From positions 1,054,001-1,118,000 of the forward strand of contig JAHBZB010000001.1 of assembly GCA_019635635.1 (NCBI GenBank): a DNA stretch of 64,000 bases, given 5' to 3'. This stretch comes from Xanthobacteraceae bacterium. Its GTDB lineage: Bacteria > Pseudomonadota > Alphaproteobacteria > Rhizobiales > Xanthobacteraceae. Position 1 is the first letter of the stretch; each line of letters starts with the position of its first letter. The notes beneath the pieces are model-generated. The model did no database searches and was not told the DNA's origin. It saw only the letters and a program-made list of their open reading frames with translations. Below are positions 49,770 through 64,000 of this stretch, piece after piece. Position numbers and translations under genes: made by a program.

Positions 49770-49925
49770 GACGCCACTCCTGACATGCCCGCCGCATCCG
49801 GGAGAAAGCGTAGACCCGTTTGCCACTGGAAGTCGACAAGATTGATCGCGGCTTGCATGGCTCCGTAATCGTGGCAATGCCGCGCGACCGTGATATGACT
49901 TAACGCAAGAGAGGGGCCGGCTGAA

Positions 49926-50435
49926 ATGAAGTGCTACTGGTGCCGCGACACCGCGCAGGTCGATGCGGCTGCGAGGCTGTTTTCGTCCAATTTGACGGCG
50001 GCTTATATCTCGCACTCCGAATTACAGGGCCCACGCGCGATTGCGCCCGGCAAATGGCACCCCGACATTGCAAGGATCATCCGCGAAGATTTGGCGGCAC
50101 GCATCGGCGCCGCCGAGGATGCGCCGGTTGGCGGACAGACGCAGCTCGCCGCGATATTGGAGAATGATGACCGCATGGTCGGCGTGTTTTTCGTTACGTT
50201 CTCCCGTGACGGCGCTGTCCCCTACGCAGTGCTCGAGGACATGGTCGTTGAGGCGGATGCGCGCGGCAAAGGTTACGGTTCCTTCTTTATGGAATGGATC
50301 AATCAGGAATGTCTCAAGCGCGGCATCAAGCGGCAGTTTCTCGAGAGCGGTATTGAAAATCACGACGCGCATCACCTGTTCGAGAAACAGGGTTTCAAAC
50401 AGGTATCGGTCGTGATGATGAAAGAGATTTCGTAG
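49926..50435 (+). CDS. GNAT family N-acetyltransferase
   Basis: This 169-aa acetyltransferase has VGVFFVTFSRDGAVPYAVLE, DMVVEADARGKGYGSFFMEW (the acetyl-CoA Q/R-x-x-G-x-G loop) and LESGIENHDAHHLFEKQGFK. It has the complete fold but an unknown acceptor. The stop is nine bases before the next gene's ATG, so they are co-transcribed. Its codon use is somewhat more A/T-rich than the surrounding genes. Confidence 0.85.
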   Translation: MKCYWCRDTAQVDAAARLFSSNLTAAYISHSELQGPRAIAPGKWHPDIARIIREDLAARIGAAEDAPVGGQTQLAAILENDDRMVGVFFVTFSRDGAVPYAVLEDMVVEADARGKGYGSFFMEWINQECLKRGIKRQFLESGIENHDAHHLFEKQGFKQVSVVMMKEIS

Positions 50436-50444
50436 GATTTGGCC

Positions 50445-51443
50445 ATGCAGCCGATTGTAACGATCGCAATTATTTTTCTCGAGTTTGTTTCGCTGCTGTG
50501 CTCGCTCTACATCACATATTTTATTTGGCTCCGCTGGAAAAACGAAGAAGGTGCGCACGACCCGCTCAAACTTGACCTTGCTTTTGTTGCTGCCAGTCTT
50601 CTATTTGTTGCTTTGATCTTCGCGTCGCTCTGGGGCGCGCATAGGCTTTCCGCTGATGGCACTATTCTCGATGCAGCTTCGCTGCTCGGCGGAAGTTTTG
50701 TAGTCGCCGGGTTTCTTTACGGCGGCTATTTGCGCAACAGGTGGGATGACGATCGCATTCGCTACGCGGTCTTGCTTTGGGCCACGCTATGGGCGGTAAT
50801 CGTTTTCTTTCTGTTCGTTGCCTGGCATTGGCGCGATCTAAAGCCCGACGAGAGCGCATTGCAGGTCATCAACAATGCCGCGCAAATTCTCGGCATCGTG
50901 ATCGCAGCGGCGATGATCGTGATCACAAATCATCTCAACTCGAAGCAACAGAATGCGACGGCGCAGCACAAGATCTATCAGACGCTCGAACTGCAATCGG
51001 TGCAGCTTTTTCAATGGGAGTGCGAGCATCCGCAATTCGCGAAGATGTTCTGGTTCGCGGAAAACCCGCCGCGCGACGAGTTGAAGCGGCATTTGCTGCG
51101 GCAATATATCTGTCAGACGCTCAATCTTTTCGAAATGGCAGTGCGCTTTCGGCGCCAGAAGATCGTCGCACCCGAGGTGTTCGGCTCATGGGTGATCTGG
51201 ATGTGGGAAGTTTGCCGCGCGCCGGTTTTTCAGAAGCTCTGGGGTGGCGAGGGCGGCATCTGGACAAATTACGTCGCTGAGTTTCGCAGGATCATGACGC
51301 GCGGCATCGAAATCACCAGTGAGTCGGGCAACGAAGCCTCGCAAAGGAAAGCATTCTTCAAGTTTGTCGGCGAACTTTTCGATTGTGAGGACGTAGAGCA
51401 CTGGATGGATATATCTGTTCAAGACTTTCGGCAGAGAAAATAG
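50445..51443 (+). CDS. Five-segment membrane protein with cytoplasmic tail
   Basis: The 332-aa protein has membrane segments near residues 3-26, 45-66, 76-95, 104-125 and 141-158 (IVTIAIIFLEFVSLLCSLYI, LDLAFVAASLLFVALIFASL, LLGGSFVVAGFLYGGYL, AVLLWATLWAVIVFFLFVAW, ILGIVIAAAMIVITNHL). A ~170-aa soluble tail follows, with WECEHPQFAKMFWFAENPPR and LNLFEMAVRFRRQK. The tail recalls DUF4760-like proteins, but I am not certain. The ATG at 50445 has AGGAT six bases upstream. Composition is a little A/T-richer than neighbours. Confidence 0.65.
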   Translation: MQPIVTIAIIFLEFVSLLCSLYITYFIWLRWKNEEGAHDPLKLDLAFVAASLLFVALIFASLWGAHRLSADGTILDAASLLGGSFVVAGFLYGGYLRNRWDDDRIRYAVLLWATLWAVIVFFLFVAWHWRDLKPDESALQVINNAAQILGIVIAAAMIVITNHLNSKQQNATAQHKIYQTLELQSVQLFQWECEHPQFAKMFWFAENPPRDELKRHLLRQYICQTLNLFEMAVRFRRQKIVAPEVFGSWVIWMWEVCRAPVFQKLWGGEGGIWTNYVAEFRRIMTRGIEITSESGNEASQRKAFFKFVGELFDCEDVEHWMDISVQDFRQRK

Positions 51444-51449
51444 AGCGCT

Positions 51450-51953
51450 TCATTTTCTTCCTTTCAGCACGCGCCAGCCTTTCTTGCCGTCGCAGTCCTT
51501 GGTCTCGCGCCAGAACACGAGCTTGGGCTTTAAGGCATTCTGCGCGATCCAGCGTGCCTCGGTGCGGCAGACCGATTCATCTTCCGGATTGACGAACAGG
51601 GAATTGAACTCCCGCGTCGCCGGGAAAAACTCCACGTTGGAAATCTCTTCAAGCGGCGTGCCACGCGGCACCGGAAAGCGGATCAGCTTCGCGTCCTTGC
51701 CGTTCTTGTCGCGGGAGAAAACCTGCGCCTTGATGAAGTTGGCGTGGTTGCTCGGACATTTCGACTGCCACAGCCAGCCGCCGGCGAAGGCGTCGCGGGT
51801 GATGATGTCGTCGGCTTCGTCGCAGGTAACCGCCGCCCGCACTTCCTTCGGAGCTTCGGCTCGCCGGAAGATAGCGTGGCTGTCCTCCTCGGCCTTGGAT
51901 GACGCTACGGCGATTAGGCAGAACGCGGCGGCGGTAAACAAGCGAGGATACAT
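51450..51953 (-). CDS. Secreted hypothetical protein (possibly DUF1176-related)
   Basis: This 167-aa product has a signal peptide (YPRLFTAAAFCLIAVASSKA-EE). Its mature part has four Cys, including VTCDEADDIITRDAFAGGWL, SVCRTEARWIAQNAL and RETKDCDGKKGWRVLKG. The layout of acidic Cys-containing strands and the Trp-Arg end resembles DUF1176 proteins, although it is shorter. The ATG at 51953 was chosen because upstream codons are not signal-like. It converges on the five-segment membrane protein with six bases between. Confidence 0.65.
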   Translation of the reverse strand: MYPRLFTAAAFCLIAVASSKAEEDSHAIFRRAEAPKEVRAAVTCDEADDIITRDAFAGGWLWQSKCPSNHANFIKAQVFSRDKNGKDAKLIRFPVPRGTPLEEISNVEFFPATREFNSLFVNPEDESVCRTEARWIAQNALKPKLVFWRETKDCDGKKGWRVLKGRK

Positions 51954-52078: not shown

Positions 52079-52465
52079 ATGAAACGGTTTCCGCTCACTG
52101 TTATGGCGGCCTTGGCGATGACGGCGTCCGCATCGGCCTCGGCTAATCTCGACTGCTCCGCGCAGGACAAGAATGTCGAACTTACGGTCGAGGCGATCAC
52201 CTCCCGCGACGGCAAGTATCTCGCGAGCCTGCGCGGCGAATTGCAGCTTGCTTCGGGTATCAAGCTTTCGTTCGAGCGGAGCGACGTGAAGTCTTATAAC
52301 TGGGGCAAGAATGTCGCGCTGGTGCTTCTCAAACAAACCCCGCAAGGCGCGGTCGAAGTCCGCATCTATGCCAAGCCGAAAGACGAAATCGAACTCGCGG
52401 GCAGCTACGTCGTGACCTTGGGCAAAACCAAAGTCTCCGGCAAAGCGCAGTGCTCTGGAGGCTGA
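52079..52465 (+). CDS. Secreted two-Cys beta protein, member 1 of trio
   Basis: The 128-aa protein has a signal peptide (FPLTVMAALAMTASASASA-NL). Its mature domain begins LDCSAQDKNVELTVEAITSR and ends VTLGKTKVSGKAQCSGG, with one Cys at each end. The strand-rich middle (LQLASGIKLSFERSDVKSYN, GAVEVRIYAKPKDEIELAGS) suggests a disulfide-closed beta sandwich. The next gene starts four bases later and encodes the same layout; both share D-x-K-NV and R-SDVK elements, so they are paralogues. Function is unknown. Confidence 0.72.
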   Translation: MKRFPLTVMAALAMTASASASANLDCSAQDKNVELTVEAITSRDGKYLASLRGELQLASGIKLSFERSDVKSYNWGKNVALVLLKQTPQGAVEVRIYAKPKDEIELAGSYVVTLGKTKVSGKAQCSGG

Positions 52466-52469
52466 GCGG

Positions 52470-52895
52470 ATGAAACGGCTTCTTTTCATAGCCGCGGCGT
52501 TGCTTGCGCTCTCCGTGCCGGCTTTCGCCTCGGCCGGGTTTTCCTGCGAGGCCGACGACAAGAACGTGACCAAGCTCTCAGTCGGCGGCGCGACCCCGCG
52601 CTCGGGCGGCAACCTGATCAATTTCGGTGCCGAGCTCGAAATCGACGGTGAGAAGATCGTGTTCAGGCAATCGGACGTGAAGCGTTACTTCGGCGCGGGC
52701 GGCGTGATCCGGGTTCGCGTCGGCGCGCGCGCGGGCGAGCGCGACTATCTCGTGATGGTGGACGCGAAGCGCAATCCGAAAGACGAGGATGACTGGTCCG
52801 GCACGTATGAGGTGCGCTATGGCCCGGCGGCCGTGCCGGGCAAGAAGACCGCGCCGCAGATCAGACGCGGCAAGGTAAAATGTTTCGTCGAGTGA
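52470..52895 (+). CDS. Secreted two-Cys beta protein, member 2 of trio
   Basis: The 141-aa product has a signal peptide (LLFIAAALLALSVPAFASA-GF). It begins FSCEADDKNVTKLSVGGATP and ends RRGKVKCFVE with a second Cys. It shares with member 1 the CxADDKNV/CSAQDKNV start and the RQSDVKRYF/RSDVKSYN element. The central region LEIDGEKIVFRQSDVKRYFG is strand-rich. The third gene overlaps its last 16 bases, so the trio is translated from one transcript. Confidence 0.72.
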   Translation: MKRLLFIAAALLALSVPAFASAGFSCEADDKNVTKLSVGGATPRSGGNLINFGAELEIDGEKIVFRQSDVKRYFGAGGVIRVRVGARAGERDYLVMVDAKRNPKDEDDWSGTYEVRYGPAAVPGKKTAPQIRRGKVKCFVE

Positions 52896-53308
52896 CGCTG
52901 CGCGCACTCTTGCTCGCGCCCGTTCTTTTCGCCGCGCGGGCGCAGGCCGCGGATAAACTCATCCTGAGTTGTTTTCCGCTTCCCGCCGAAGGGCCGGTGA
53001 AGATTGAGGCCTATGTCGATGGCACCGCGGAAAGCGAATATCCGCCGAAACAGATCGGGGCGGTGCGCGTGCTGGTGCGCTTCGGCGAGGATCCTTACGA
53101 ATATTTCCCGGAGCAGACGAAGCTCTCCGAAATCAGGAACGGCGTGCTGCGGCTGCATCTGTTCCAGCCGCTTTCCGCCGGCGAAAGCGCGGAGCTTCGA
53201 TTCGAGGGCAAGCTGCCCGCCAGGAAGGGCGAGCAGTTTGCGTTGCGGATGGAGATACGCGCGGAGAAGCGCGTGGGCCGCGGGCAGGTGCGCTGCACCA
53301 TCGAATAA
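52880..53308 (+). CDS. Secreted two-Cys beta protein, member 3 of trio
   Basis: This 142-aa protein has a signal peptide (TLRALLLAPVLFAARAQA-AD). It starts ILSCFPLPAEGPVKIEAYVD and ends GRGQVRCTIE, so it keeps the two-Cys, G-x-V-x-C end of members 1 and 2 while the middle diverges (IGAVRVLVRFGEDPYEYFPE, GESAELRFEGKLPARKG). The ATG lies 16 bases inside member 2. The ordered loss of similarity suggests duplication followed by divergence. Confidence 0.72.
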   Translation: MFRRVTLRALLLAPVLFAARAQAADKLILSCFPLPAEGPVKIEAYVDGTAESEYPPKQIGAVRVLVRFGEDPYEYFPEQTKLSEIRNGVLRLHLFQPLSAGESAELRFEGKLPARKGEQFALRMEIRAEKRVGRGQVRCTIE

Positions 53309-53368
53309 TGCGGCCGCCGCGGAACCGCTGCCGCCGGACCGGCGTTTCCGGTCCGGGAGGAATTCGCC

Positions 53369-53578
53369 ATGCGATTTCCTGCGCAATTTCCGCCACACTG
53401 GATGATGGAACTGGTGCTGACCATCGCGCTCTTTATTACGGTCGTGGTGCTGATCTTCTCCTTGCGCGGACCGCCGGGCGACCGCACCCGGGTAACCCTC
53501 GAGCGCAGCGATGCGGTGCGGATTATCGGCGAGCGGCGGGTGCCGCTGGCCGCCGAGGAAACCGCGCTCGGCCGCTGA
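53369..53578 (+). CDS. 69-residue single-pass membrane protein
   Basis: The protein has a single membrane segment (WMMELVLTIALFITVVVLIF) at residues ~11-30. A basic cytoplasmic-type tail follows (GPPGDRTRVTLERSDAVRII, GERRVPLAAEETALGR). No family is recognised. It lies 60 bases after the secreted trio and 110 bases before another small membrane protein. Confidence 0.6.
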   Translation: MRFPAQFPPHWMMELVLTIALFITVVVLIFSLRGPPGDRTRVTLERSDAVRIIGERRVPLAAEETALGR

Positions 53579-53687
53579 TGCGCGCCGCGCGCGCCGCGTA
53601 AATTTTCCGTTCAAGCGGCGATTTGCGCGCATGCCCGCGCGGGAGTAAATTTGCTGCATAGAAGGTTGGCGCCCGAGGCCCTCCGCG

Positions 53688-53945
53688 ATGAGCCGCGACA
53701 AGGTTCGGATCATTCCATTTCCCAAGCGCAAGACCGTGCGCCAGCGCGACTGGTCGCGCGTGCCGATGGACCTTCTGTTCATAGCCGGTCTCGGCGTCGC
53801 CTTCGTGATCGCGCATTACAGCGACAAGCCGCCGCTGGTAGATAAGCCGATCTCGCTCCAGCGCACCGGCGGGCCGCAATTCGCCGACAACCCGCAAATC
53901 GGCGTGCGCGTGATCGACTCCGGCCTGCGCGGCTACGAGCGGTAG
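53688..53945 (+). CDS. 85-residue single-pass membrane protein
   Basis: The N-terminus is basic (SRDKVRIIPFPKRKTVRQRD). One membrane segment follows (MDLLFIAGLGVAFVIAHY), then a polar tail (DKPISLQRTGGPQFADNPQI, GVRVIDSGLRGYER). The positive-inside rule puts the N-terminus in the cytoplasm. I do not recognise the family. It ends 27 bases before a convergent secreted-protein gene. Confidence 0.6.
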   Translation: MSRDKVRIIPFPKRKTVRQRDWSRVPMDLLFIAGLGVAFVIAHYSDKPPLVDKPISLQRTGGPQFADNPQIGVRVIDSGLRGYER

Positions 53946-53972
53946 CGCCGCTTTCGCGGGGACGGCGAGCAA

Positions 53973-54617
53973 TCATTCCGCGCTCGCGGAATAGCTGAGC
54001 GTGAAAATCCAGAGCTTCGGCTTCAGCGAAAGCAAATCGGGATCGTTGCTGCCGATCTCGACTTCGCCGATGAAGCGCTTGAGATGTTCGGGCGGCTGGC
54101 CGCCCTCGATCTCGAAATGCGCGCCGAACGAACAGCCGCCCGCGAGTTTCTCGAGCTTGGTGCCTTCGAAGTGGCCCTTTCCGGCGACGTCGAAGCCGAA
54201 ACCGTTGATCCTGAACGGCTTGCCCGCGATCTGCTCGATGCGTGCAATCGTCATGCCGTTCCTGATGCCGAAGGGGCCGATCCAGCGGTTCTTCTCGCCG
54301 AACACGGTGATGACCGCGGGCCTTGCCTTCTTCTCCTCGTCGAACCATTCGACCTCGAGGCGGCGCGAAGGATCTTTTGCAAACACAACGCTCGCCACCA
54401 CGACCTCGCCTTCCGCGCGGGCGATTTCCTCGACGGCGACGTTCTTCGCGCCATAAGCCTTCACCAGATCGGCGTGGGTTGCGTTCGGCCCGAACTGCCC
54501 GCGGCATTCGACGCGATATTGCGGCTGCGGAATCTGCGGCGCGGGCTGCGCGCGCGCGGGAATAGCGAAGCATGTGGCGCAAAGCGCGATAGCGAACATA
54601 GCGGAATGAATTTTCAT
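53973..54617 (-). CDS. Secreted hypothetical protein
   Basis: This 214-aa protein has a signal peptide (MFAIALCATCFAIPARA-QP). It begins YRVECRGQFGPNATHADLVK, YGAKNVAVEEI and VFAKDPSRRLEVEWFDEEKK. Later blocks are IGPFGIRNGMTIARIEQIAG, KPFRINGFGFDVAGKGHFEG and AGGCSFGAHFEIEG. The 'IRNGMTIARIEQIAGKPF' region resembles short bacterial proteins with a substrate-cleft fold of unknown role. It has only two Cys in the mature part, at its two ends. Confidence 0.72.
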   Translation of the reverse strand: MKIHSAMFAIALCATCFAIPARAQPAPQIPQPQYRVECRGQFGPNATHADLVKAYGAKNVAVEEIARAEGEVVVASVVFAKDPSRRLEVEWFDEEKKARPAVITVFGEKNRWIGPFGIRNGMTIARIEQIAGKPFRINGFGFDVAGKGHFEGTKLEKLAGGCSFGAHFEIEGGQPPEHLKRFIGEVEIGSNDPDLLSLKPKLWIFTLSYSASAE

Positions 54618-54736
54618 CGGGCGAAGCGTTCCTGGTGAAAGTTTTTGCGGTCCGGTCTTACGAATCCGTCATCTTGCGGAACCGAGTGCAGGCATCGCCC
54701 GTTGTTCCACCGGAGGCAACAACCATCGGAGATATC

Positions 54737-54994
54737 ATGTCACGTCATTTCAAGACCGTTATTGCGGCCGTCGCCATGCTTGGTTTCGTGGGCGCAGCTA
54801 CCGTCAACGCGCAGCCCGCGCCGAAGAATCCGCCGCAGGCCGACGACAACAAGGCCACCAATCCGGGCGGCCAGAACAAGACGAAGAATACGATGCCGAA
54901 AACGAAACCCGACGCGATGAAGAACGCGCCGAAGGGCAAGAACGCGCCGCAGGCCGACGATAACAAGGAAACGAACCCGGCGGGCAAGAAGTAA
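54737..54994 (+). CDS. Short secreted Asn/Lys/Pro-rich protein with an internal repeat
   Basis: The 85-aa product has a signal peptide (FKTVIAAVAMLGFVGAATVNA-QP). Its mature part contains two near-identical units: NPPQADDNKATNPGGQNK and NAPQADDNKETNPAGKK, separated by a Lys-rich linker. GGAG precedes the ATG at 54737; 34 in-frame codons upstream are not signal-like. Probably disordered; function is unknown. A strong hairpin terminator follows. Confidence 0.7.
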   Translation: MSRHFKTVIAAVAMLGFVGAATVNAQPAPKNPPQADDNKATNPGGQNKTKNTMPKTKPDAMKNAPKGKNAPQADDNKETNPAGKK

Positions 54995-55028
54995 CGTCGC
55001 GAAATACTGCGAGTGCGCAGACGCGAAG

Positions 55029-55053
55029 GCTCGGGCATTTGCCCGGGCTTTTT
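55029..55053 (+). terminator. Rho-independent terminator after the repeat-containing secreted gene
   Basis: GCTCGGGCA and TGCCCGGGC pair with a two-base loop and one G-T wobble, followed by TTTTTC. It lies 34 bases past the stop. Confidence 0.8.
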
Positions 55054-55143
55054 CGTTTGCGGTTTGCGCGAACGCGGGGGAGGTGAGCGCCGCGAAAGCC
55101 GCAAGAGTTGAGGCCGCCGCAAAAGCAAGCATCGTGGGCATCC

Positions 55144-55737
55144 CTAGGGTTTCGGCAGCTTGAGCGAAGGCTCGGGTTTGCTCAGTTGCGTCGTGAAGAT
55201 TTCGTAGCCATCGCCGGTCATGCGCGTTTCCGCGCGCGTGACGAAGTTTTTGTCGGCGCGGTTTACCCAGTATTTTGTGTGCACGCGCACCTTCTGGTTC
55301 GGCAGGTCGGTTTCGGCTTCGACGGTTTCGTGCTTGATTCCGTTCAACGTGTCTTCGCCGCATTGCGCGTTGCGTGCGCTCGCGGCCTGTTTCTTCACGT
55401 TGTCGTCGGCGCCGGCCTGCTGCTGCGTCTTGTCGAAGGTGCGGATTTTCTTCCAGTTCTTGCCTTCGTCGTCGCTCTGGTACATCGCACCGTCATAGGT
55501 GAGGTACCACGGCCCCTTGGGGTCGGTCGCCTTGTGCAGATAGTGGCCGGGCGCGGCCCAGAGAAACTCGCTCTTGTTGAGAGCGGCGCCCTTCATCTGC
55601 TGCGTGTTCTGCGAGACGGTCGCCCGCGTGTTGGCGTAGTTCGTGAGCACGGCGATGAACTTGTCTTTGCACGCGTCGGCAAGCGCGGGCGAGCTGTAAA
55701 GCAGGAGCAGGGCCAAAGCGGCCAGGCGGATTTGCAT
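55144..55737 (-). CDS. Secreted hypothetical protein
   Basis: This 197-aa protein has a signal peptide (RLAALALLLLYSSPALA-DA). Its mature part starts CKDKFIAVLTNYANTRATVS and continues EFLWAAPGHYLHKATDPKGP, WYLTYDGAMYQSDDEGKNWK, NAQCGEDTLNGIKHETVEAE and YWVNRADKNFVTRAETRMTG. The 'YWVNRADKNFVTRAETRM' part recalls proteins with a lipoprotein-carrier-like fold, but no firm family is seen. AAGGAGG precedes the ATG at 55737. The frame continues to 56163, but this part runs through the structured region and is not coding. Confidence 0.75.
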   Translation of the reverse strand: MQIRLAALALLLLYSSPALADACKDKFIAVLTNYANTRATVSQNTQQMKGAALNKSEFLWAAPGHYLHKATDPKGPWYLTYDGAMYQSDDEGKNWKKIRTFDKTQQQAGADDNVKKQAASARNAQCGEDTLNGIKHETVEAETDLPNQKVRVHTKYWVNRADKNFVTRAETRMTGDGYEIFTTQLSKPEPSLKLPKP

Positions 55738-55861
55738 CAGGTCTTCCTCCTTCTCTGGATTGGCGAAGTATAGGCCGCGCAATTTTACGGTTGCACCCGG
55801 TTCATTGTCGCGCGCACGGGTTCTCCTTCTCGCGCGTGAATGCCGAGTTATGAGGGCGGCG

Positions 55862-56132
55862 GGGACGCCGGGAGAATTCCGTCTCCCACGGCCGCCTGTG
55901 CGAAGAAAACAGCACAGACGAGGGTAGTCACCGCGAAAGCCGGAATCGTTCCCGGCGTCCCGCACAGCGCGCGCGGGGGTTAGCCCGTTCGCGCCATTAC
56001 GCACGGTGGAGTTACAGCTTCGTTCGCGCGGCCCCCGGTGGACTGACCGAACTATCCACCGCTGGCGGGCCTTATCTGCTTCGCCGTACTTGCGTTGGCA
56101 CACGTTCCCAACGAAGCAGCCAAGCAAGGCCC
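55862..56132. ncRNA. Candidate structured RNA or folded repeat
   Basis: Several nested complementary pairs stand out. GGGACGCCGGG (55862-55872) matches CCCGGCGTCCC (55951-55961) over 11 bases and encloses CTGTGC/GCACAG (55896-55901, 55912-55917). CGGTGGA (56004-56010) pairs with TCCACCG (56055-56061). A third domain nests GGGCCTT/AAGGCCC (56067-56073, 56126-56132), CTGCTT/AAGCAG (56076-56081, 56114-56119) and CGTTGG/CCAACG (56093-56098, 56108-56113). The strand cannot be decided. It lacks the tag of a two-piece tmRNA and the core of RNase P RNA. I recall similar translated 'ORFs' being annotated in relatives, which would fit a conserved non-coding repeat, but this is memory only. Confidence 0.5.
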
Positions 56133-56365
56133 TTGTGACGAGCGGCAGGCTCGCCGGAACCATGCGACTTCAGCCGCTGCGGATTTGGGTGCGTTACGCC
56201 CGCATTCGCAGCCACCGTTCCCGATCCGCACATCGAACACGCCGCGCGACATGGCCCTTATTTGGACCGGGACGAGAAGGAATATAGTCCTAGTTTGGGG
56301 TGGAAGTATGACGGGGGCAAAATTTGCATGGGGTGTAGCCCATTACCTCAGTCCGAACGAAGTCC

Positions 56366-56387
56366 TACGTCTGCAATCGTGTATACT
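56366..56387 (+). promoter_or_regulatory. Possible promoter of the DUF6119 gene
   Basis: TATACT (56382-56387) lies 33 bases before the ATG at 56420 and is a good sigma-70 -10 hexamer. A matching -35 is weak. A/T content rises here compared with upstream sequence. Confidence 0.3.
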
Positions 56388-56419
56388 GCTTTGTTTTTCG
56401 AGTTCGGAGGGGAAGCCGA

Positions 56420-57976
56420 ATGGCAAAATCGATATCACTTTCAATCCGCCTTATTAGTGAGGATGCAAAGACCGAGAATTCAATTCTTAAAACAGGTTTG
56501 GGATTGCGTTCGGTAGGCATTAAGGGGAAGGCTGGAAGCAAGATATTTTTTCAAGCAACAGCAACAAAGACTCCGAAGTGGCTTCCACGCGTAAATGCAA
56601 TTGCTGAGAAGCCAGTTGCAAATCTGTTCAACGCTCAAGCCTCAGCGCTATTGCTTCTTAAAGTTGATAAGCGTTACTTCGCAGTGTCGTTTGGGTCTGG
56701 CTGGGCGTGGCTCGAAGGTAGCGCTGTTGAAAGAAGATTCGGCCTGTTGGCGGCGTTAAATTGTATAGGCGAAGAGCAAATTAAAGTCGTCGATGCGCAG
56801 CAGATCGATACGCTGGCGCTTTCAAAGCGTTCACAAGTCTCTCACAGTTCTGAGATAGCGGCGTTCGGCTTGGATGCCAGCCGAGATTTAATGCAAGCCG
56901 TAATGGGAAAGCCGAAGGACTCTTCAATTGGCAGCAGCATAACCGGTGCAGATGCGTTGCGGCTAGTCGCTAAATTGGATCTCTCTGATATCGATAAGAA
57001 GTGCTCAGAACTTCTAAAGCTGTCAAAATCCAAAGAATACCAGAAGCGATATAGCTGGATTGACAATATTGAGCAGGTCAAGAACCCAGATCAGAAGGAA
57101 AAGCTAGACCAGCTGTTGGTGAAGAGCATCAATGAGAAAGAGACGGATCGCCTTTTCCTGTCTCCTCCGCGTATTCGAGATATCATGACTGATGAAGAAT
57201 ATCGATTACCTTTTGGCGATAAGGATGATGAGCCAGACTACGATCTCGAAATAGAAAAGCTTCTTCCGAGACTCTACGCGAAGCCTCCTATAAAAATAGA
57301 TCTGCTAAAGAAAAATCATATTGACGTCTTTATCAACGATTCTCCGGCAGGAAGATTTTCTATTTATTCCGCTCTGGTTTTTGAAGTGAAGAGCGGCAGC
57401 AGCCTATTTTGCTTAATAGACGGCACTTGGTTCAAAGTCGCGTCGAGTCACGTTGAGGAAGTAAATAAGAAAATCGATGCAATAAAAGTTTCAAACATTG
57501 ATTTGCCGAAAGCAAAAAAGGGCGAGAAAGAGAAGGAGTACAATACTCGCGCCTCACAAGAGAAGAATCTTCTATTCTTGGATGAGAAGTTGATTGTTTA
57601 TGGTGGTGGTCAAAGTAGAATCGAGATTTGCGATTTAATGAGCGATAAGCCGGAATATGTTCATGTAAAAAAATCTGGCGGCTCTCAGGTGCTAAGCCAC
57701 CTTTTCAATCAAGGCGTGGTTTCTGGTCAATCCTTAATGGACTTGCCATTCCGCAAACTTTGCAAGCAATACGTGACCGGGAAATATTGGCCGCATCTGG
57801 AAGACGGAAAGTTTAGCGCGAACAAATCAACTGTAGTGTTTGCTCTTATTATGTCGAAACCAAAGAACATTCCAACAGGCTTGCCGTTTTTCAGCAAGCA
57901 AACGCTGGCAAATGCCAACGACCAACTCAGTCGATTTGGCTATAAGGTCGAAATAATCGGGATTGGAGTAGAATAG
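56420..57976 (+). CDS. TIGR04141/DUF6119 family sporadically distributed protein
   Basis: The 518-aa protein opens MAKSISLSIRLISEDAKTEN with the family's beta-rich start. It has FNAQASALLLLKVDKRYFAV, SFGSGWAWLEGSAVERRFGL and LALSKRSQVSHSSEIAAFGL in the N-terminal half. In the C-terminal half it has CLIDGTWFKVASSHVEEVNK, LFLDEKLIVYGGGQSRIEIC and EYVHVKKSGGSQVLSHLFNQ, then GVVSGQSL. These match what I know as TIGR04141 (DUF6119), a patchily distributed family of unknown biochemical role that occurs in genomic islands. GGAGGGG lies eight bases before the ATG. Codons are far richer in A/T than the neighbours, a sign of transfer. No membrane segments are seen. Confidence 0.8.
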   Translation: MAKSISLSIRLISEDAKTENSILKTGLGLRSVGIKGKAGSKIFFQATATKTPKWLPRVNAIAEKPVANLFNAQASALLLLKVDKRYFAVSFGSGWAWLEGSAVERRFGLLAALNCIGEEQIKVVDAQQIDTLALSKRSQVSHSSEIAAFGLDASRDLMQAVMGKPKDSSIGSSITGADALRLVAKLDLSDIDKKCSELLKLSKSKEYQKRYSWIDNIEQVKNPDQKEKLDQLLVKSINEKETDRLFLSPPRIRDIMTDEEYRLPFGDKDDEPDYDLEIEKLLPRLYAKPPIKIDLLKKNHIDVFINDSPAGRFSIYSALVFEVKSGSSLFCLIDGTWFKVASSHVEEVNKKIDAIKVSNIDLPKAKKGEKEKEYNTRASQEKNLLFLDEKLIVYGGGQSRIEICDLMSDKPEYVHVKKSGGSQVLSHLFNQGVVSGQSLMDLPFRKLCKQYVTGKYWPHLEDGKFSANKSTVVFALIMSKPKNIPTGLPFFSKQTLANANDQLSRFGYKVEIIGIGVE

Positions 57977-58201
57977 CTAATCGAGATTTGGCAGGTCAAA
58001 CTGGTCTGGGTGATCGATACGGCTAGTGGTGGAGTAAGTAGGCGCTCGGAAATACTCAGTGACTTCCACCGACTTTTCTTCGTCTTCAACTAGTGACGGT
58101 TGTGTCCGGTCAAATAGCGTTCGCCCCGGCCCTTGATTTGGCCTTCGCCGACGATAGTGGCGCACAAAATCCTTTGCGGCAGGTGATCGATAGCGGGCCA
58201 T
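57977..58201 (-). CDS. 74-residue orphan protein, tail-to-tail with the DUF6119 gene
   Basis: The product begins MARYRSPAAKDFVRHYRRRR, is very basic in its first half and acidic in its second (LVEDEEKSVEVTEYFRAPTY, DHPDQFDLPNLD). The stop codon directly abuts the DUF6119 stop. I recognise no family. A charge-split small protein of this kind could bind nucleic acid or a partner, but no ribosome site is strong and expression is not established. Confidence 0.5.
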   Translation of the reverse strand: MARYRSPAAKDFVRHYRRRRPNQGPGRTLFDRTQPSLVEDEEKSVEVTEYFRAPTYSTTSRIDHPDQFDLPNLD

Positions 58202-58284
58202 TTTCTAGTTCGAATCCTAGCTCGAATTCATTGTAATCGGATTCGCCTTAAGAAAAGTAATAATTACTGAAACGGGTTAGCGGT

Positions 58285-58608
58285 TCAGACAACCACACGC
58301 TCAAGAACCGCTTTAATTTCAACGCCGGGTAAATCGGACGACTCGCAAACGCACATAATGTTCTGGAATCCGCCGCGCCCGCTCATTCTGATTCTACGGA
58401 CATATTTACGGGCCTCCCCAGAAAACTGTACAAATAGCGGTCTGACTTCCACGTCGGCGCTAAAGTTATCGCCTTTCCGAGTGTAACTGCCCACATACAG
58501 GAGTTTGTTGTTGCCGCCGTAAAGCTTCTTGCCTTCTGCAAGAGTTATAACGCCGAGGTCAGTTCCATCAGGCGTTTCAAAGCGAGCTTGATAAAAACCG
58601 TCGAACAT
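58285..58608 (-). CDS. GrlR-like small regulatory protein
   Basis: The 107-aa product reads MFDGFYQARFETPDGTDLGV, ITLAEGKKLYGGNNKLLYVG and SYTRKGDNFSADVEVRPLF, then GGFQNIMCVCESSDLPGVEI. The start 'DGFYxxxFxTP', 'GxxYGGN...YYVGSY' and 'GDxFxA' steps are those of the GrlR family, small lipocalin-like proteins first known as negative regulators of LEE in enteropathogens. In other bacteria GrlR-like proteins have no defined partner. GGGGAGG precedes the ATG at 58608. No GrlA partner is visible. Confidence 0.75.
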   Translation of the reverse strand: MFDGFYQARFETPDGTDLGVITLAEGKKLYGGNNKLLYVGSYTRKGDNFSADVEVRPLFVQFSGEARKYVRRIRMSGRGGFQNIMCVCESSDLPGVEIKAVLERVVV

Positions 58609-58717
58609 AAATGCCTCCCCACATCGTGTTATTTTGGGCATGTGGGGGCCAAAACTGGAGCCTACAAGTCAGTCTTCAATAATTTTTTGCGCGGTCCCAG
58701 ATAGTTTTAAGGGCGAC

Positions 58718-61171
58718 CTACCGCCCCTTCCTCTTAAACGCCCGCGTGCCGCCGCGGCCCGCGGTGGAGGCGGGTTTGCGGCCGGTCGGAAGAGGGGCTG
58801 CCATCTTGCTTTTTGATGATCCCGCATGGGTGCTCGCTCCGCTCGCCATGCGGGATGTCGGATCATCGACAAACGCCATTTCGACTTCGCGCAGGCGCTT
58901 CAACTCGTCACGAAGCCGCGCGGCTTCCTCGAAGTTCAGGTCGCTGGCTGCCTCTTTCATCTGCTTTTCGAGATCGGCGAGCACCGCCTCGAAATTGTGC
59001 CCGTAGGTCGCAATATCCTCGGCGAAGCCCGCGTCCACCGTCACGCGGTCGCGCTCGTAGATCGAGCCCATGATGTCGCCGATGGATTTGCGTACGCTCT
59101 CCGGCGTGATGCCGTTCTCGGCGTTATATTCTTCCTGCTTCGCGCGGCGGCGATTGGTCTCTGCGATCGCGCGCTGCATCGAGCCGGTCTCCGAGTCGGC
59201 ATACAAGATCACGCGGCCGTCCACGTTGCGCGCGGCGCGGCCGATGGTCTGCACCAGCGACGTCTCGGAGCGCAGGAAACCTTCCTTGTCGGCATCCAGA
59301 ATCGCGACCAGCCCGCACTCGGGAATGTCGAGGCCCTCGCGCAGCAAGTTAATGCCGATCAGCACGTCGAAGGCGCCGAGGCGCAGGTCACGGATGATCT
59401 CGATGCGCTCGATGGTGTCGATGTCCGAGTGCATGTAGCGCACGCGCACGCCCTGTTCGTGCAGATATTCGGTGAGGTCCTCGGCCATGCGCTTGGTCAG
59501 CGTGGTGACCAGCGTGCGGTAGCCGCGCTTCGCGGTCTCGCGCACTTCGCCGAGCAGATCGTCGACCTGCGTGCGTGCGGGGCGAATGTCGATCTGCGGA
59601 TCGGTCAAGCCGGTCGGGCGGATCACCTGTTCCGCGAACACGCCTTGCGTCTGGCCCAGCTCCCAGCCGCCGGGCGTCGCGGACACGGCGATGGTCTGCG
59701 GGCGCATCGCGTCCCATTCCTCGAAACGGAGCGGGCGGTTGTCCATGCAGGAGGGGAGCCGAAAGCCGTATTCGGCGAGGGTCGCCTTGCGGCGGAAGTC
59801 GCCGCGATACATGCCGCCGATCTGCGGCACGGTGACGTGGCTCTCGTCGACGAAGATCAGTGCGTTGTCCGGCACATATTCGAACAGCGTCGGCGGCGGC
59901 TCGCCGGGAGCGCGGCCCGTGAGCCAGCGCGAATAGTTCTCGATGCCGGAGCAGACGCCGGCTGCCATCAGCATTTCCAGGTCGAACATGGTGCGCTGCT
60001 CGAGCCGCTGCGCTTCGAGGAGGCGGCCCGCTTTGACCAGTTCGTCGAGGCGCTGCTTCAGCTCGGCTTTGATGCCTTCGATCGCCTGATTGAGCGTCGG
60101 GCGCGGGGTCACGTAATGCGAGTTCGCGTAGATCTTGATGAATTCGAGCTCGTTGTGCTTCGCGCCGGTGAGCGGGTCGAATTCGTGGATCGCCTCGACA
60201 TCGTCGCCGAACAGCGAGACGCGCCAGGCGCGGTCTTCATAGTGCGCGGGGAAGATTTCGATGACGTCGCCGCGCACGCGGAAGGTGCCGCGCGCGAAAT
60301 CCATGTCGGTGCGGCGATATTGAAGCGCGACGAGATCGGCGATGATCTGGCGCTGGTCGAGCTTGTCGCCCTTTTTCACGTCGAAAGTCATGCGCGAATA
60401 GGTCTCGACCGAGCCGATGCCGTAGATGCACGACACCGAGGCGACGATGATGACGTCGTCGCGCTCGAGCAACGCGCGCGTCGCCGAGTGGCGCATGCGG
60501 TCGATCTGCTCGTTGATCGCGGAGTCTTTTTCTATGTAGGTGTCGGTGCGCGGGACATAGGCTTCCGGCTGGTAGTAGTCGTAATAGCTGACGAAATACT
60601 CGACCGCGTTCTCGGGGAAGAACGCCTTGAACTCGCCGTAGAGTTGCGCGGCAAGCGTCTTGTTCGGCGCGAGAATGAGCGCGGGGCGCTGCGTGCGCTC
60701 GATCACCTGCGCCATGGTGAAGGTCTTGCCGGAGCCGGTGACGCCGAGGAGCACCTGCGTGCGCTCGTTGTCGTGCACGCCGTTGACGAGTTCCTCGATC
60801 GCGGTGGGCTGGTCGCCGGCGGGCGCAAACTCCGAGACCAGCTTGAACTTCCTGCCGCCTTCGGATTTTGCCGGACGCTCGGGGCGATGCGGCGTCCATG
60901 CCGCGTTGTTGATGACGTCGCGGCCGTTCGCGATCAGCGCATTCAGCGCGTCCGCGCTTTTCGAGGAGCCGAGCGAAGCGCGGAAATCGTTCTCGTCCTG
61001 CGGCTTTTCGAAACCGGCCGCGCGCGCGAGTTCCGGGTCCACCGTCGGCGCAAGCGCCGGCGTCTCGAAATTCAGCTGCGGACGTTCGGCCATGCCGTGG
61101 CTGACGCCGCGGGCGGTGCGATAGGGCTTGTCGGCCTTACCGGCCGCCTTGGGCTTCGACTCTTTGGGCAT
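58718..61171 (-). CDS. uvrB: UvrABC excinuclease subunit B
   Basis: The 817-aa protein has a ~100-aa N-terminal extension, then Walker A ([20 protein letters not shown]), the beta-hairpin ([20 protein letters not shown]), DESH box ([20 protein letters not shown]), motifs IV-VI ([50 protein letters not shown]) and the C-terminal UVR domain ([20 protein letters not shown]). It loads onto damaged DNA with UvrA and recruits UvrC. The tail past the UVR domain ([20 protein letters not shown]) is encoded by a palindromic element at 58815-58867. The convergent or neighbouring island ends just downstream. Confidence 0.97.
58815..58867. repeat. Palindromic element inserted in frame in the uvrB tail
   Basis: GATGATCCCGCATGG (58815-58829) faces CCATGCGGGAT-gtcg-GATCATC (58846-58867), giving a long, nearly perfect hairpin. 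It is read on the minus strand as [18 protein letters not shown] in the uvrB frame, and it looks like an extragenic palindromic repeat of the kind found between genes. Its coding use is clear from the uninterrupted frame. The insertion does not touch the helicase core. Confidence 0.8.
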
Positions 61172-61210
61172 GGCCCGAATATGGGGTGGCCGCGCGGAAG
61201 AATAAAGGCG

Positions 61211-61939
61211 TCAGTCGCCGCCGCCGATATATCCCGCGATGCGCCACTTGCCGTCGCGCTTGGCGAAGCAGAGCCGCGGGTCGAGCGGCGTCAGGAGTTC
61301 GCCCGGCGCGACGAAAGCCTTCTTGCCGTCGTGGGTGACAACCGGCGACCAGCCGTTCTTGTAATCGAAGTCGGAGCCGCGCGCGGCAAGATCGACATAG
61401 ACGAAATGCGCGGAGAGTTTCGCGACTTCCGGCGAACCGGCTTCGCCTTTCTCGCGCGCAATCACGTTACCATGCGCGGGATAGCCCCAGTCGAAGACTT
61501 CGGTGTCGGTGTCTTTCAGGAGCTTCTCGAACTCCTTCTCATTATATTTCGGCGCGGGTGGGCCGCAGAACACGCCCTTTTTTTTCTCGTGCGGTCCCGG
61601 AACTTGGGCCGCGAATTTCGCAAGCAGCTCCCAGCCGCTGCCGTCGTCGGCATTCAGGCTGAGCGCGGTGGCGAAATTGATGAAGGCGGACTTCTTTTTC
61701 TCGAAGCCGCCGCCGAAGTCGCGTTCCCAGAAGAAACTGCCGGCGACGAGCTTGCGCAGCGCCTCGGCGTCTTTCTTCCGTGCGATTTCGCCAAGCGTCG
61801 CGCGGAATACTTCGAGCGAGGGATCGCTCGGACCCTTCGCGATCTCGGCTGCAACCAGCGGATATTCTTTAGGCGGTTCGGCGCTTGCCGTGGCGGTGAA
61901 AGCCAGCGCGAAAAGCGCGGTCAGAACGATTTTTTTCAT
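61211..61939 (-). CDS. Secreted protein with SH3-like end
   Basis: This 242-aa protein has a signal peptide (VLTALFALAFTATASA-EP). The first part has ALRKLVAGSFFWERDFGGGF, then FINFATALSLNADDGSGWEL. The C-terminal part has VFDWGYPAHGNVIAREKG, HFVYVDLAARGSDFDYKNGW and LCFAKRDGKWRIAGYIGGGD. The last 60-70 residues look like a small beta-barrel of the SH3 type. No catalytic motif is visible. It lies about 40 bases beyond uvrB on the same strand. Confidence 0.7.
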   Translation of the reverse strand: MKKIVLTALFALAFTATASAEPPKEYPLVAAEIAKGPSDPSLEVFRATLGEIARKKDAEALRKLVAGSFFWERDFGGGFEKKKSAFINFATALSLNADDGSGWELLAKFAAQVPGPHEKKKGVFCGPPAPKYNEKEFEKLLKDTDTEVFDWGYPAHGNVIAREKGEAGSPEVAKLSAHFVYVDLAARGSDFDYKNGWSPVVTHDGKKAFVAPGELLTPLDPRLCFAKRDGKWRIAGYIGGGD

Positions 61940-61988
61940 GCGTGCTCGAGGGTAGCGCCGATTATGAGGGGATTGTGGCTATGGGCCA

Positions 61989-62159
61989 TCACAGGCCCCG
62001 GAACATCGCCCCGATCATGAGCGCCGCCCAGGCGCCGGTCATGAAGGCGAAGCGGTGCAGGCCGACGAAGGGGATGTCCACGATCAGGCTAAGAAGCGCC
62101 AGCACCGCGAGGATCACGGACAGGAGGAATACGATGGTGGTCGGCGCGGTCAGGCGCAT
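61989..62159 (-). CDS. 56-residue membrane protein
   Basis: A short reading frame gives MRLTAPTTIVFLLSVILAVL, ALLSLIVDIPFVGLHRFAFM and TGAWAALMIGAMFRGL. It has two hydrophobic segments with Pro and His between, a GGAGAG ribosome site about nine bases upstream of the ATG at 62159 and a TGA stop. The layout is typical of the small two-span proteins common in this group. Function is unknown. Confidence 0.7.
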   Translation of the reverse strand: MRLTAPTTIVFLLSVILAVLALLSLIVDIPFVGLHRFAFMTGAWAALMIGAMFRGL

Positions 62160-62272
62160 GGGTCTCTCCGGGAACTGCGTTTGCGGACGTTGTGGCGGGA
62201 ATCGGATTCAGTCTAGCTTCGCGCCTCGTCCCGCGCGACTCCGCTTTTCCCCGTTCCCGCCCCGGTGCCCTG

Positions 62273-62620
62273 ATGACGCTTTCGCCCGCGATCACGCCGA
62301 TCCTGCTCCTGTTCGTTTCCAACATTTTCATGACCTATGCCTGGTATGGGCATCTGAAGGACAAGTCGTCGCCCATCATCTACGCGATCCTGTTCAGCTG
62401 GGGCATCGCCTTCATCGAATACTGCTTCGCGGTGCCCGCGAACCGCATCGGGCACGGTGTCTATTCGGCGGCACAGCTCAAGACGATTCAGGAAGTCATT
62501 ACACTGGTGATCTTCGCGGCGTTCTCGGTGCTTTACCTCGGCGAGAAGTTCACCTGGAATTATCTGGTCGGCTTCGCGCTGATCGCGGCCGGCGCCTATT
62601 TCATCTTCCATAAGTGGTAA
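62273..62620 (+). CDS. DUF486 family membrane protein
   Basis: The 115-aa protein has four hydrophobic segments and the DUF486 pattern ILLLFVSNIFMTYAWYGHLK, IYAILFSWGIAFIEYCFAVP and ANRIGHGVYSAAQLKTIQEV. It continues ITLVIFAAFSVLYLGEKFTW, NYLVGFALIAAGAYFIF. DUF486 proteins are small inner-membrane proteins of unknown function related to DMT transporters. The ATG at 62273 fits the family start; the frame extends upstream without support. It faces the PQQ-type dehydrogenase across six bases. Confidence 0.93.
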   Translation: MTLSPAITPILLLFVSNIFMTYAWYGHLKDKSSPIIYAILFSWGIAFIEYCFAVPANRIGHGVYSAAQLKTIQEVITLVIFAAFSVLYLGEKFTWNYLVGFALIAAGAYFIFHKW

Positions 62621-62626
62621 GGGCAG

Positions 62627-63766
62627 TTATTTCGCTGGCGTGAGCCGCAGGACCTTGCCGTTTCGCGCGTCGGTCAGGAGCCAGATCGCGCCGTCGGGCG
62701 CCTGCCGCACGTCGCGGATGCGGTCGCCTCCGGCTTCGAGCAACGCTTCCTCTTTCACGAATTTTTCGCCGTTCACTTCGATGCGGTAGAGAGAAGTGAA
62801 GACCAGCGAGCCGGTGAAGAGATTGCCCTTCCATCCGGGAAACAGATCGCCGGTGTAGAACATAGCACCCGAGGGCGCGATGGACGGCGTCCAGTAATGG
62901 ATCGGCTGCTCCATGCCTTCCTTGTGCGTATTTTCGTGAATCTTCGCGCCGGAATAGTCGATGCCGTAGCCGATCACCGGCCAGCCGTAATTCTTGCCGG
63001 CTTCGGGAATGTTGATCTCGTCGCCGCCGCGCGGGCCGTGCTCGACGATCCAGAGCTTGCCGGTTTGAGGGTGAAGGACCGCGCCCTGCACGTTGCGGTG
63101 GCCGTAGGACCAGATTTCCGGCTTCGCGTCTTTATTCTTCACAAAGGGATTGTCCATGGGCACGCCGCCATCGGGCGTCACGCGGATGATCTTGCCGATG
63201 TGGTTGGAAAGCTCCTGCGCCGGCGTCTTCAGGTTACGCTCGCCGGTGGTGATGAAAAGATTGCCGTCGCGCGCGAACACGAGCCGCGAGCCGAAGTGAA
63301 AGCCGCCGGGCCGCGCAGGCTCCTGCCGGAAAATCACTTTTACGTCTTCCAGCGATGCCTTGCCGTCTTTTTCCACAAACTTCCCGCGCGCGACCGAAGT
63401 GCTCGAGCCGTTCGCGCCGCGCGGTTCGGCGAAACTCAGGAAAACCAGATTGTCTTTTACAAAATTGGGGGAGAGCGCGACGTCGAGCAGTCCGCCCTGG
63501 CCGACGGCGGCGACTTCGGGCACGCCTGCGACCGGATCGGAGAGTTTGTTGTCCTTGCCGATGATGCGAAGCCGTCCCGGCCGTTCGGTGACCAGCGCGC
63601 GGCCATCGGGCAGGAAGGCGAGACCCCACGGATTTTGCAATCCGCTGGCGATGACTTCGACGCTGATTTGCGCTTTTTCGCTTTTGACGACGGTCGCTTC
63701 GGTCTGCGCCGATGCGGGCACGGCGAACAGAAGCGGGAGCAGGAAAAGGGTGCGGATTTTTTTCAT
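62627..63766 (-). CDS. PQQ-dependent sugar dehydrogenase (soluble glucose dehydrogenase family)
   Basis: The 379-aa protein has a signal peptide (LFLLPLLFAVPASA-QT). A six-bladed propeller follows: LQNPWGLAFLPDGRALVTER, GRLRIIGKDN, GQGGLLDVALSPNF, GSRLVFARDGNLFITTGERN, GHRNVQGAVLHPQTGKLWIV and EHGPRGGDEINIPEAGKNYG. Then WPSITPSGAMF-like WTPSIAPSGAMFYTGD and FTSLYRIEVNG appear. The catalytic His/Arg and EHGPRGGDE are those of the Asd/soluble GDH family (YliI-like). It oxidises aldoses in the periplasm with PQQ; the sugar is unknown. It converges on the DUF486 gene. Confidence 0.93.
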   Translation of the reverse strand: MKKIRTLFLLPLLFAVPASAQTEATVVKSEKAQISVEVIASGLQNPWGLAFLPDGRALVTERPGRLRIIGKDNKLSDPVAGVPEVAAVGQGGLLDVALSPNFVKDNLVFLSFAEPRGANGSSTSVARGKFVEKDGKASLEDVKVIFRQEPARPGGFHFGSRLVFARDGNLFITTGERNLKTPAQELSNHIGKIIRVTPDGGVPMDNPFVKNKDAKPEIWSYGHRNVQGAVLHPQTGKLWIVEHGPRGGDEINIPEAGKNYGWPVIGYGIDYSGAKIHENTHKEGMEQPIHYWTPSIAPSGAMFYTGDLFPGWKGNLFTGSLVFTSLYRIEVNGEKFVKEEALLEAGGDRIRDVRQAPDGAIWLLTDARNGKVLRLTPAK

Positions 63767-63823
63767 GCAGGAAAGCCTAGAGCCTTCCTGCATAACCTGC
63801 CAACGCAGCGATGGTTCGGAAAA

Positions 63824-63994
63824 TCAGCGGCGGGTTCGGTTGGTGCGCTTGTTGTGCACCGGGGCCACATCCCGCAAGGCGAGGATGGTGAGAACGCCCA
63901 TCACGACCACGATCAGCGCGAGGATGCCCATGGTGGTGAGCGCGGAGCTTGCGGACTCTTCCATCATGATGAGGTCGCTGCGGTTCGAGGCCAT
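63824..63994 (-). CDS. Short membrane protein at the right edge, possibly truncated
   Basis: The visible frame gives MASNRSDLIMMEESASSALT, TMGILALIVVVMGVLTILAL and RDVAPVHNKRTNRTRR. It has one membrane segment and a basic tail. The ATG at 63994 lies only six bases from the edge, so an earlier start or a longer gene cannot be ruled out. No family is recognised. Confidence 0.5.
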   Translation of the reverse strand: MASNRSDLIMMEESASSALTTMGILALIVVVMGVLTILALRDVAPVHNKRTNRTRR

Positions 63995-64000
63995 GGCGCT

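Follow-up and report, generated by a model that had tools for sequence, protein, structure and literature searches.

A DUF6119 gene in an A+T-rich insert beside uvrB

We analyzed a 64,000-nucleotide stretch of DNA from a Xanthobacteraceae bacterium (assembly GCA_019635635.1, contig JAHBZB010000001.1, positions 1,054,001 to 1,118,000), hereafter called the window, and in particular a gene of the DUF6119/TIGR04141 family that lies beside uvrB. This gene (56420..57976, + strand) encodes a protein of 518 amino acids (aa), and a GGAGGGG sequence is found 7 nt upstream of its ATG. A first-pass annotation, made from the sequence alone, had assigned the protein to DUF6119/TIGR04141, and profile searches gave the same answer. 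Indeed, PF19614 (DUF6119) matched residues 7-514 over positions 1-522 of its 524-position model with 431.5 bits (cut-off 27), and TIGR04141 matched over its entire model (1-516 of 516) with 433 bits (cut-off 35). The window protein is thus a full-length member of the family, far over the curated cut-offs. It gave the single DUF6119 match in all contigs of its own genome, on the contig labeled C1 in our analysis.

The first-pass annotation had also reported a rise in A/T from about 56.28 kb, and this was confirmed by the guanine-plus-cytosine (GC) content of 500-base windows, which was 0.41-0.50 over 56250-58749, compared with 0.59-0.68 over 52250-56249 and 58750-63999. Within the window, A+T content peaks at the DUF6119 gene: the lowest GC among 64 one-kb windows (0.423) was found at bases 57001-58000, and when 1,557-base windows were moved in steps of 100, the 21 with the lowest GC all overlapped the gene. 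Its GC and third-codon-position GC are 0.443 and 0.466, respectively, compared with 0.648 and 0.857 for uvrB, and the GC of the window is 0.623.

We compared the locus by blastn with four sister genomes (G001, G002, G003, and G007); the remaining genomes of the genus, G004, G005, and G006 (3/8 genus genomes), were left out because of broken contigs or the lack of a match. DUF6119 was absent from the uvrB site in the four sister genomes. In G003, homology of the left flank extends up to 56324. In G001, homology of the right flank begins at 58283 and covers a 118-aa gene next to uvrB, without DUF6119, and in G002, G003, and G007, homology starts again only at uvrB. Because the G003 homology stops at 56324 and the G001 homology begins at 58283, the insert carrying DUF6119 probably spans 56325..58282 (1,958 bases), with one genome behind each border. 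A search for terminal repeats at the ends of this insert found none better than expected by chance.

To the left of the insert, a stretch common to G003 (55853..56324) contains a dispersed, GC-rich repeat; six further sites of the genome carry incomplete copies of it with 80-86% identity. Pieces of this repeat are also present in G002 and G003, on the side of the cargo facing away from uvrB, and the repeat at 55853-56324 may be a recombination point. The cargo at the uvrB site differs between genomes: a caspase-domain gene in G002 (PF00656, E 3.5e-17; L023:4433-6187), a MerR-DUF433 gene overlapping a DUF5615 gene in G003 (L026:3861-4945), a 276-aa protein without Pfam match in G001 (L025:4967-5797), and a 195-aa protein without Pfam match in G007. 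The 276-aa protein has one weak PHROG match, annotated as function unknown (E 0.00025). From these gene contents, we read the place beside uvrB as a small exchange site with variable cargo, and, judged by domain names, three of the five cargoes look defense-like. By eye, a DYIF...AELK stretch of the G001 276-aa protein resembles PD-(D/E)XK.

Two further reading frames and uvrB itself adjoin the DUF6119 gene. The convergent 74-aa open reading frame (ORF) at 57977..58201 (- strand), listed as an orphan gene in the first-pass annotation, is indeed present as an ORF. Its best Pfam E value was 0.063, short of the curated cut-off, and NCBIfam, PADLOC, and PHROGs gave nothing at E <= 1; nor was a homolog detected in the comparison loci. 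For these reasons, it may not be a gene. A possible role of this ORF as an antitoxin was dropped, as no homolog was found. The 118-aa gene (58285..58641, - strand) had been described as GrlR-like and as part of the island, and neither description was supported. Searches with its product against Pfam, NCBIfam, PADLOC, and PHROGs gave nothing at E <= 1, which leaves the GrlR name unconfirmed. Since G001 has an 85% identical homolog at uvrB and no DUF6119, we rejected this gene as insert cargo and placed it outside the insert as a resident of the uvrB region; its own GC is also low (0.493). The uvrB gene (58718..61171, - strand), named from its sequence and wide conservation, is the conserved right-hand anchor of the site. 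No tRNA was found in the window, an Rfam search of 53500-59500 yielded three matches, all under the gathering scores, and promoter and terminator scans at the locus gave results no better than those of shuffles. A second low-GC dip is located at about 49814-51468 (GC 0.50-0.55 from 50.0 kb). G002 lacks this stretch and has 69 bases between its matches to 49813 and 51469; the stretch is probably another insert.

Distribution and genomic context of DUF6119 relatives

The distribution of the family is sporadic. Counting the genome of the window, DUF6119 was present in 1/8 genomes of the genus, 2/41 relatives, 10/385 genomes of the class, and 11/398 of the phylum, and in 0/14 controls. The gene was probably acquired horizontally, which fits the first-pass description of a sporadic, island-borne family. 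A scan with one genome per species revealed 199 relatives, of which the best 80, and not a random draw, were analyzed; a pattern over L425-G432 of the DUF6119 protein led to many of the added loci. The relatives among these best 80 of 199 are spread over many bacterial phyla. Further relatives were found in two viral contigs, one phage record, and 26 plasmid records, and the window protein matched 1 of 50,697 phage records at E <= 1e-5. Its nearest aligned relative, from Bradyrhizobium iriomotense, is 36% identical, and the protein tree places the window copy on a deep branch. The DUF6119 and TIGR04141 models name no function, and none was found in the literature searched, a search that most subscription papers fell outside of.

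Some relatives are carried by phages or prophages. In a family-level relative (G020), DUF6119 is located within prophage head genes, flanked by genes for a minor head protein and a head protease, in an operon that is 'Mu-like' in our reading. In phage vB_PaeS-D14B, DUF6119 adjoins an integrase. The G020 gene also adjoins a 283-aa orphan without Pfam or PHROG match (L027:9531-10382), possibly co-carried cargo. A 1,790-aa ORF at locus L138 was considered as a fusion and rejected, as Pfam matched only residues 1265-1787; its start was read as overlong, and the upstream neighbor of L138 in the neighbor set was taken from this overlong start.

Neighboring genes were then collected from flanks of up to 10 kb, in which ORFs of fewer than 70 aa were not called. 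Removal of 34 of the 82 loci that were >60% identical to another left 48 dereplicated loci. Subunits of type I restriction systems were found in the flanks of 12/48 dereplicated loci (18/82 in total). When the neighbors were clustered, HsdM, HsdR, and HsdS recurred in 11, 11, and 9 of the 48 loci, respectively, and no other cluster of ORFs of at least 70 aa reached three loci. In 7/48 loci, hsdS is directly upstream of DUF6119 on the same strand; the hosts belong to Armatimonadota, Elusimicrobiota, Chloroflexota, Verrucomicrobiota, Zixibacteria, Omnitrophota, and Caulobacteraceae. The order hsdM-hsdS-DUF6119-hsdR was observed in five of the 12 linked loci, with extra predicted ORFs between some of these genes. 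Among the immediate neighbors (n=90), Methylase_S was matched by seven using Pfam and by eight using PADLOC, and BrxL, MmeI, GmrSD, and Abi_C were among the single cases. HsdS was present in 10 loci versus approximately 0.1 of 48 expected by chance, an order-of-magnitude estimate with a baseline counted by eye (21 HsdS loci in 162 Mb from 58 genomes, all of the class to which the window belongs) and applied to DUF6119 loci from many phyla.

Two other arrangements were seen directly upstream of DUF6119. In an Eisenbacteria genome, the upstream gene encodes BrxL (BREX; L086:7605-9713). In two further loci (L052:4179-8004 and L142:6914-8254), it encodes a 446-aa protein without Pfam match over the cut-off, which in L052 is preceded by an ATPase and an S8 peptidase.

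The plasmid records gave a similar picture. We read 21 of the 26 plasmid hits, five of which had no gene annotation, leaving 16 annotated stretches. Type I subunits were present in 9/16, and in 4/16 DUF6119 is located between hsdS and hsdR, with the order S-M-S-DUF6119-R in three cases and S-S-DUF6119-R in one. According to the protein tree, the DUF6119 protein of the S-S-DUF6119-R operon is a near-copy of that of one of the S-M-S-DUF6119-R operons. The stretches without type I genes include one with Shedu and TIR, one with TIR, and one with NACHT. When mapped onto the protein tree (87 sequences), the restriction label takes 15 changes, a value as low as that of 75/500 shuffles and thus showing no extra clustering; the link is therefore scattered and not the habit of one lineage. 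Members of the family occur inside type I operons elsewhere, and the window gene is solitary, with no adjacent hsdM, hsdS, or hsdR.

Predicted structure and conserved residues

An AlphaFold2 model of the window protein was built from 65 sequences, after the exclusion of 18 of the 82 proteins (fragments, overlong ORFs, and near-copies). The predicted local distance difference test score was 90.4 for the full-length model and 94.7 for the C-terminal part modeled alone. This C-terminal domain (residues 341-518; 57440..57973, + strand) is predicted to form a PD-(D/E)XK-like nuclease core, as suggested by the model, the conservation, and weak structural matches. It begins with a helix bearing E371 and a first strand, continues with one strand bearing E402 and D405 and another bearing H415 and K417, and, after a long helix with S422, H427, and Q431, ends in strand, helix, strand. 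Such an order fits that of the PD-(D/E)XK core (alpha-beta-beta-beta-alpha-beta). Among the sequences found by profile or tblastn, 23/23 show no change at E371, D388, E402, D405, H415, K417, S422, H427, and Q431. The wider set retains E371, E402, D405, S422, H427, and Q431 in 87/87 sequences, K417 in 86/87, and H415 and D388 in 85/87. It should be noted that, as loci were found by the L425-G432 pattern, the conservation in this segment is partly fixed by the search, in favor of H427 and Q431.

In the PDB, the best structural matches of the C-terminal domain were the CdiA-CT DNase (rank 1), BglII (2 and 3), and HamA of Hachiman (4), followed further down by Mus81-Eme1 (9 and 13) and SfsA (22), all of which we take to be of the PD-(D/E)XK type. 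The CdiA-CT DNase (PDB 4g6u) is the top PDB match of both the C-terminal domain and the full model, but with E values of 0.026 and 0.04 and a TM-score of at most 0.32; it is a secreted toxin domain and not a large two-part protein. HamA (PF08878, PDB 8vxy) resembles the predicted nuclease core at E 0.16 only, and it differs in context, as no recurrent helicase partner except HsdR is found near DUF6119. A search of the PDB by sequence profile returned a single match, a zinc uptake regulator (E 1.4).

The N-terminal beta-rich region (residues 1-340; 56420..57439, + strand) is possibly RdgC- or clamp-like, according to Foldseek. RdgC (PF04381) and sliding clamps recur, mostly as weak matches, in both the PDB and the viral lists obtained with the full model. 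Among viral structures, phage PTXU04 supplied the best match (probability 0.99, E 0.003), a protein of 284 residues labeled 'exonuclease'. This phage encodes two 284-aa proteins, one of which matches RdgC (PF04381, 30.6 bits) while the other matches nothing over the cut-off, and the structural match is for this reason most likely RdgC. A comparison with 31 RdgC sequences using hhalign gave a probability of 0.2%, and no RdgC was found in a search of 41 related genomes. RdgC is not known to have a C-terminal domain of the DUF6119 kind. As the structural matches are weak and the profile comparison favored neither HamA nor RdgC, we consider the nuclease reading of the C-terminal part probable and an RdgC-like front half a lead.

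Candidate function of the DUF6119 protein

The family assignment, the base composition, the sporadic distribution, the restriction-operon link of the relatives, the conserved residues, and the confidently predicted fold are directly supported by these analyses. Our preferred reading, to which we give about an even chance, is that the DUF6119 protein is an accessory anti-phage DNA nuclease, horizontally acquired as a single-gene unit and gated by its N-terminal part, that joins type I operons in some relatives. We infer nuclease activity, a DNA substrate, N-terminal gating, and a role in defense as follows. The C-terminal nuclease, with the variant site E371 ... E402-x-x-D405 ... H415-x-K417 ... 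Q431, would cut DNA, and the large beta-rich N-terminal part would hold or sense DNA and thereby gate the cut. In those relatives where the gene is placed just after hsdS within a type I restriction operon, the protein may deliver a second attack on invading DNA missed by the methylation-based system. In the present genome, it would act alone, from the variable site beside uvrB.

A defense role had already been proposed in the first-pass annotation on the basis of the compositional island. This proposal gained indirect support from the type I genes near 12/48 loci and the defense genes near some plasmid relatives, from the positions in a prophage head operon and next to an integrase together with the nuclease-like predicted fold, and from the defense-like domains at the same site in G002 and G003. 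Defense itself remains a prediction.

Several observations weigh against the anti-phage nuclease. No PADLOC 2.0.0 model matched the DUF6119 protein at E <= 1. The residue two positions before K417 is a histidine in 85/87 sequences and not the usual D/E acid. No structural match reached E 0.001 with either the full model or the C-terminal domain, and the top ten of the latter include unrelated folds (lumazine synthase, ORC, and ribonucleotide reductase). Profile comparisons of the protein with HamA and HamA-like sets by hhalign gave a probability of <1%, and no PF08878 match was found at E <= 1. Concerning the context, 36/48 dereplicated loci, some of them on short contigs, have no type I subunit, and two annotated plasmid stretches have no plain defense gene. 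The Methylase_S matches in the genome of the window correspond to one hsdM/hsdS locus on another contig (C3). Finally, matches to 152 PADLOC models (25 of the 152 listed) were also obtained with a control set of 58 genes at a distance of >6.5 kb, so that the contrast between near and far genes is unclean; these matches among distant genes are as in defense islands.

The same nuclease-like core could instead belong to a suicide guard of the PrrC or RloC kind. Its N-terminal part, or else the restriction complex, would keep it silent until a phage disturbs restriction, and it would then attack DNA or RNA of the host cell itself. The four plasmid operons, in which DUF6119 and its neighbors hsdS and hsdR touch or overlap over a few bases, are compatible with such an arrangement. 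However, most loci showed no restriction partner, no restriction gene is close to the window gene, and no further cluster reached three of the 48 loci, although a small antitoxin of <70 aa could escape this analysis. We regard this explanation as possible and hold it tentatively. It is also conceivable that DUF6119 serves the mobile elements that carry it, in superinfection exclusion, inter-element competition, or plasmid upkeep, with the restriction genes as mere co-travelers. The prophage head genes in G020, the integrase neighbor in vB_PaeS-D14B, the 26 plasmid records, and the two viral contigs all point in this direction. However, the position directly after hsdS in 7/48 loci from several phyla goes beyond co-residence, and a single phage record was matched; this makes a mobile-element function unlikely. 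A further alternative is a DNA clamp that resembles RdgC, is extended by another domain, and acts primarily in DNA repair or recombination and not in defense; it would account for the PTXU04 match, most likely RdgC, and for the presence of RdgC in the PDB list. We judge it quite improbable, as the protein has no sequence similarity to RdgC and as the sporadic spread and restriction-operon context are ill-suited to a housekeeping factor.

A precedent for additional genes inside a type I operon, and thus for the accessory nuclease that we favor, is found on VPI-2 of Vibrio cholerae. There, the two type IV restriction genes tgvAB are reported to be embedded in a type I operon and to protect against phages with modified DNA independently of HsdR activity (PMC11411939). 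The same report describes that tgvAB alone confer 10- to 100-fold less protection against several phages than is seen in a fuller strain. The DUF6119 genes of some relatives also lie inside type I operons, whereas TgvAB is GmrSD-like and needs two proteins, and DUF6119 is one protein with another predicted fold. Within the DUF6119 family, the window copy is a deep branch and has no restriction neighbors.

A more ambitious version of the anti-phage nuclease can be formulated, in which the family combines an H-x-K site, unusual for such nucleases, with a front half that encircles DNA in the manner of RdgC or a clamp, acts solo, and has been repeatedly recruited as a fourth type I subunit across phyla, with the uvrB site as a single-gene defense exchange site. 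As a whole, this version appears doubtful to us.

What is new here for DUF6119 is the confident predicted nuclease-like fold and the association with restriction operons, which together suggest a function for the family. DUF6119 thereby gains a proposed role as a nuclease, with named residues and a restriction partner. Some type I restriction operons carry DUF6119 as a built-in component, and the known range of layered restriction systems would grow accordingly.

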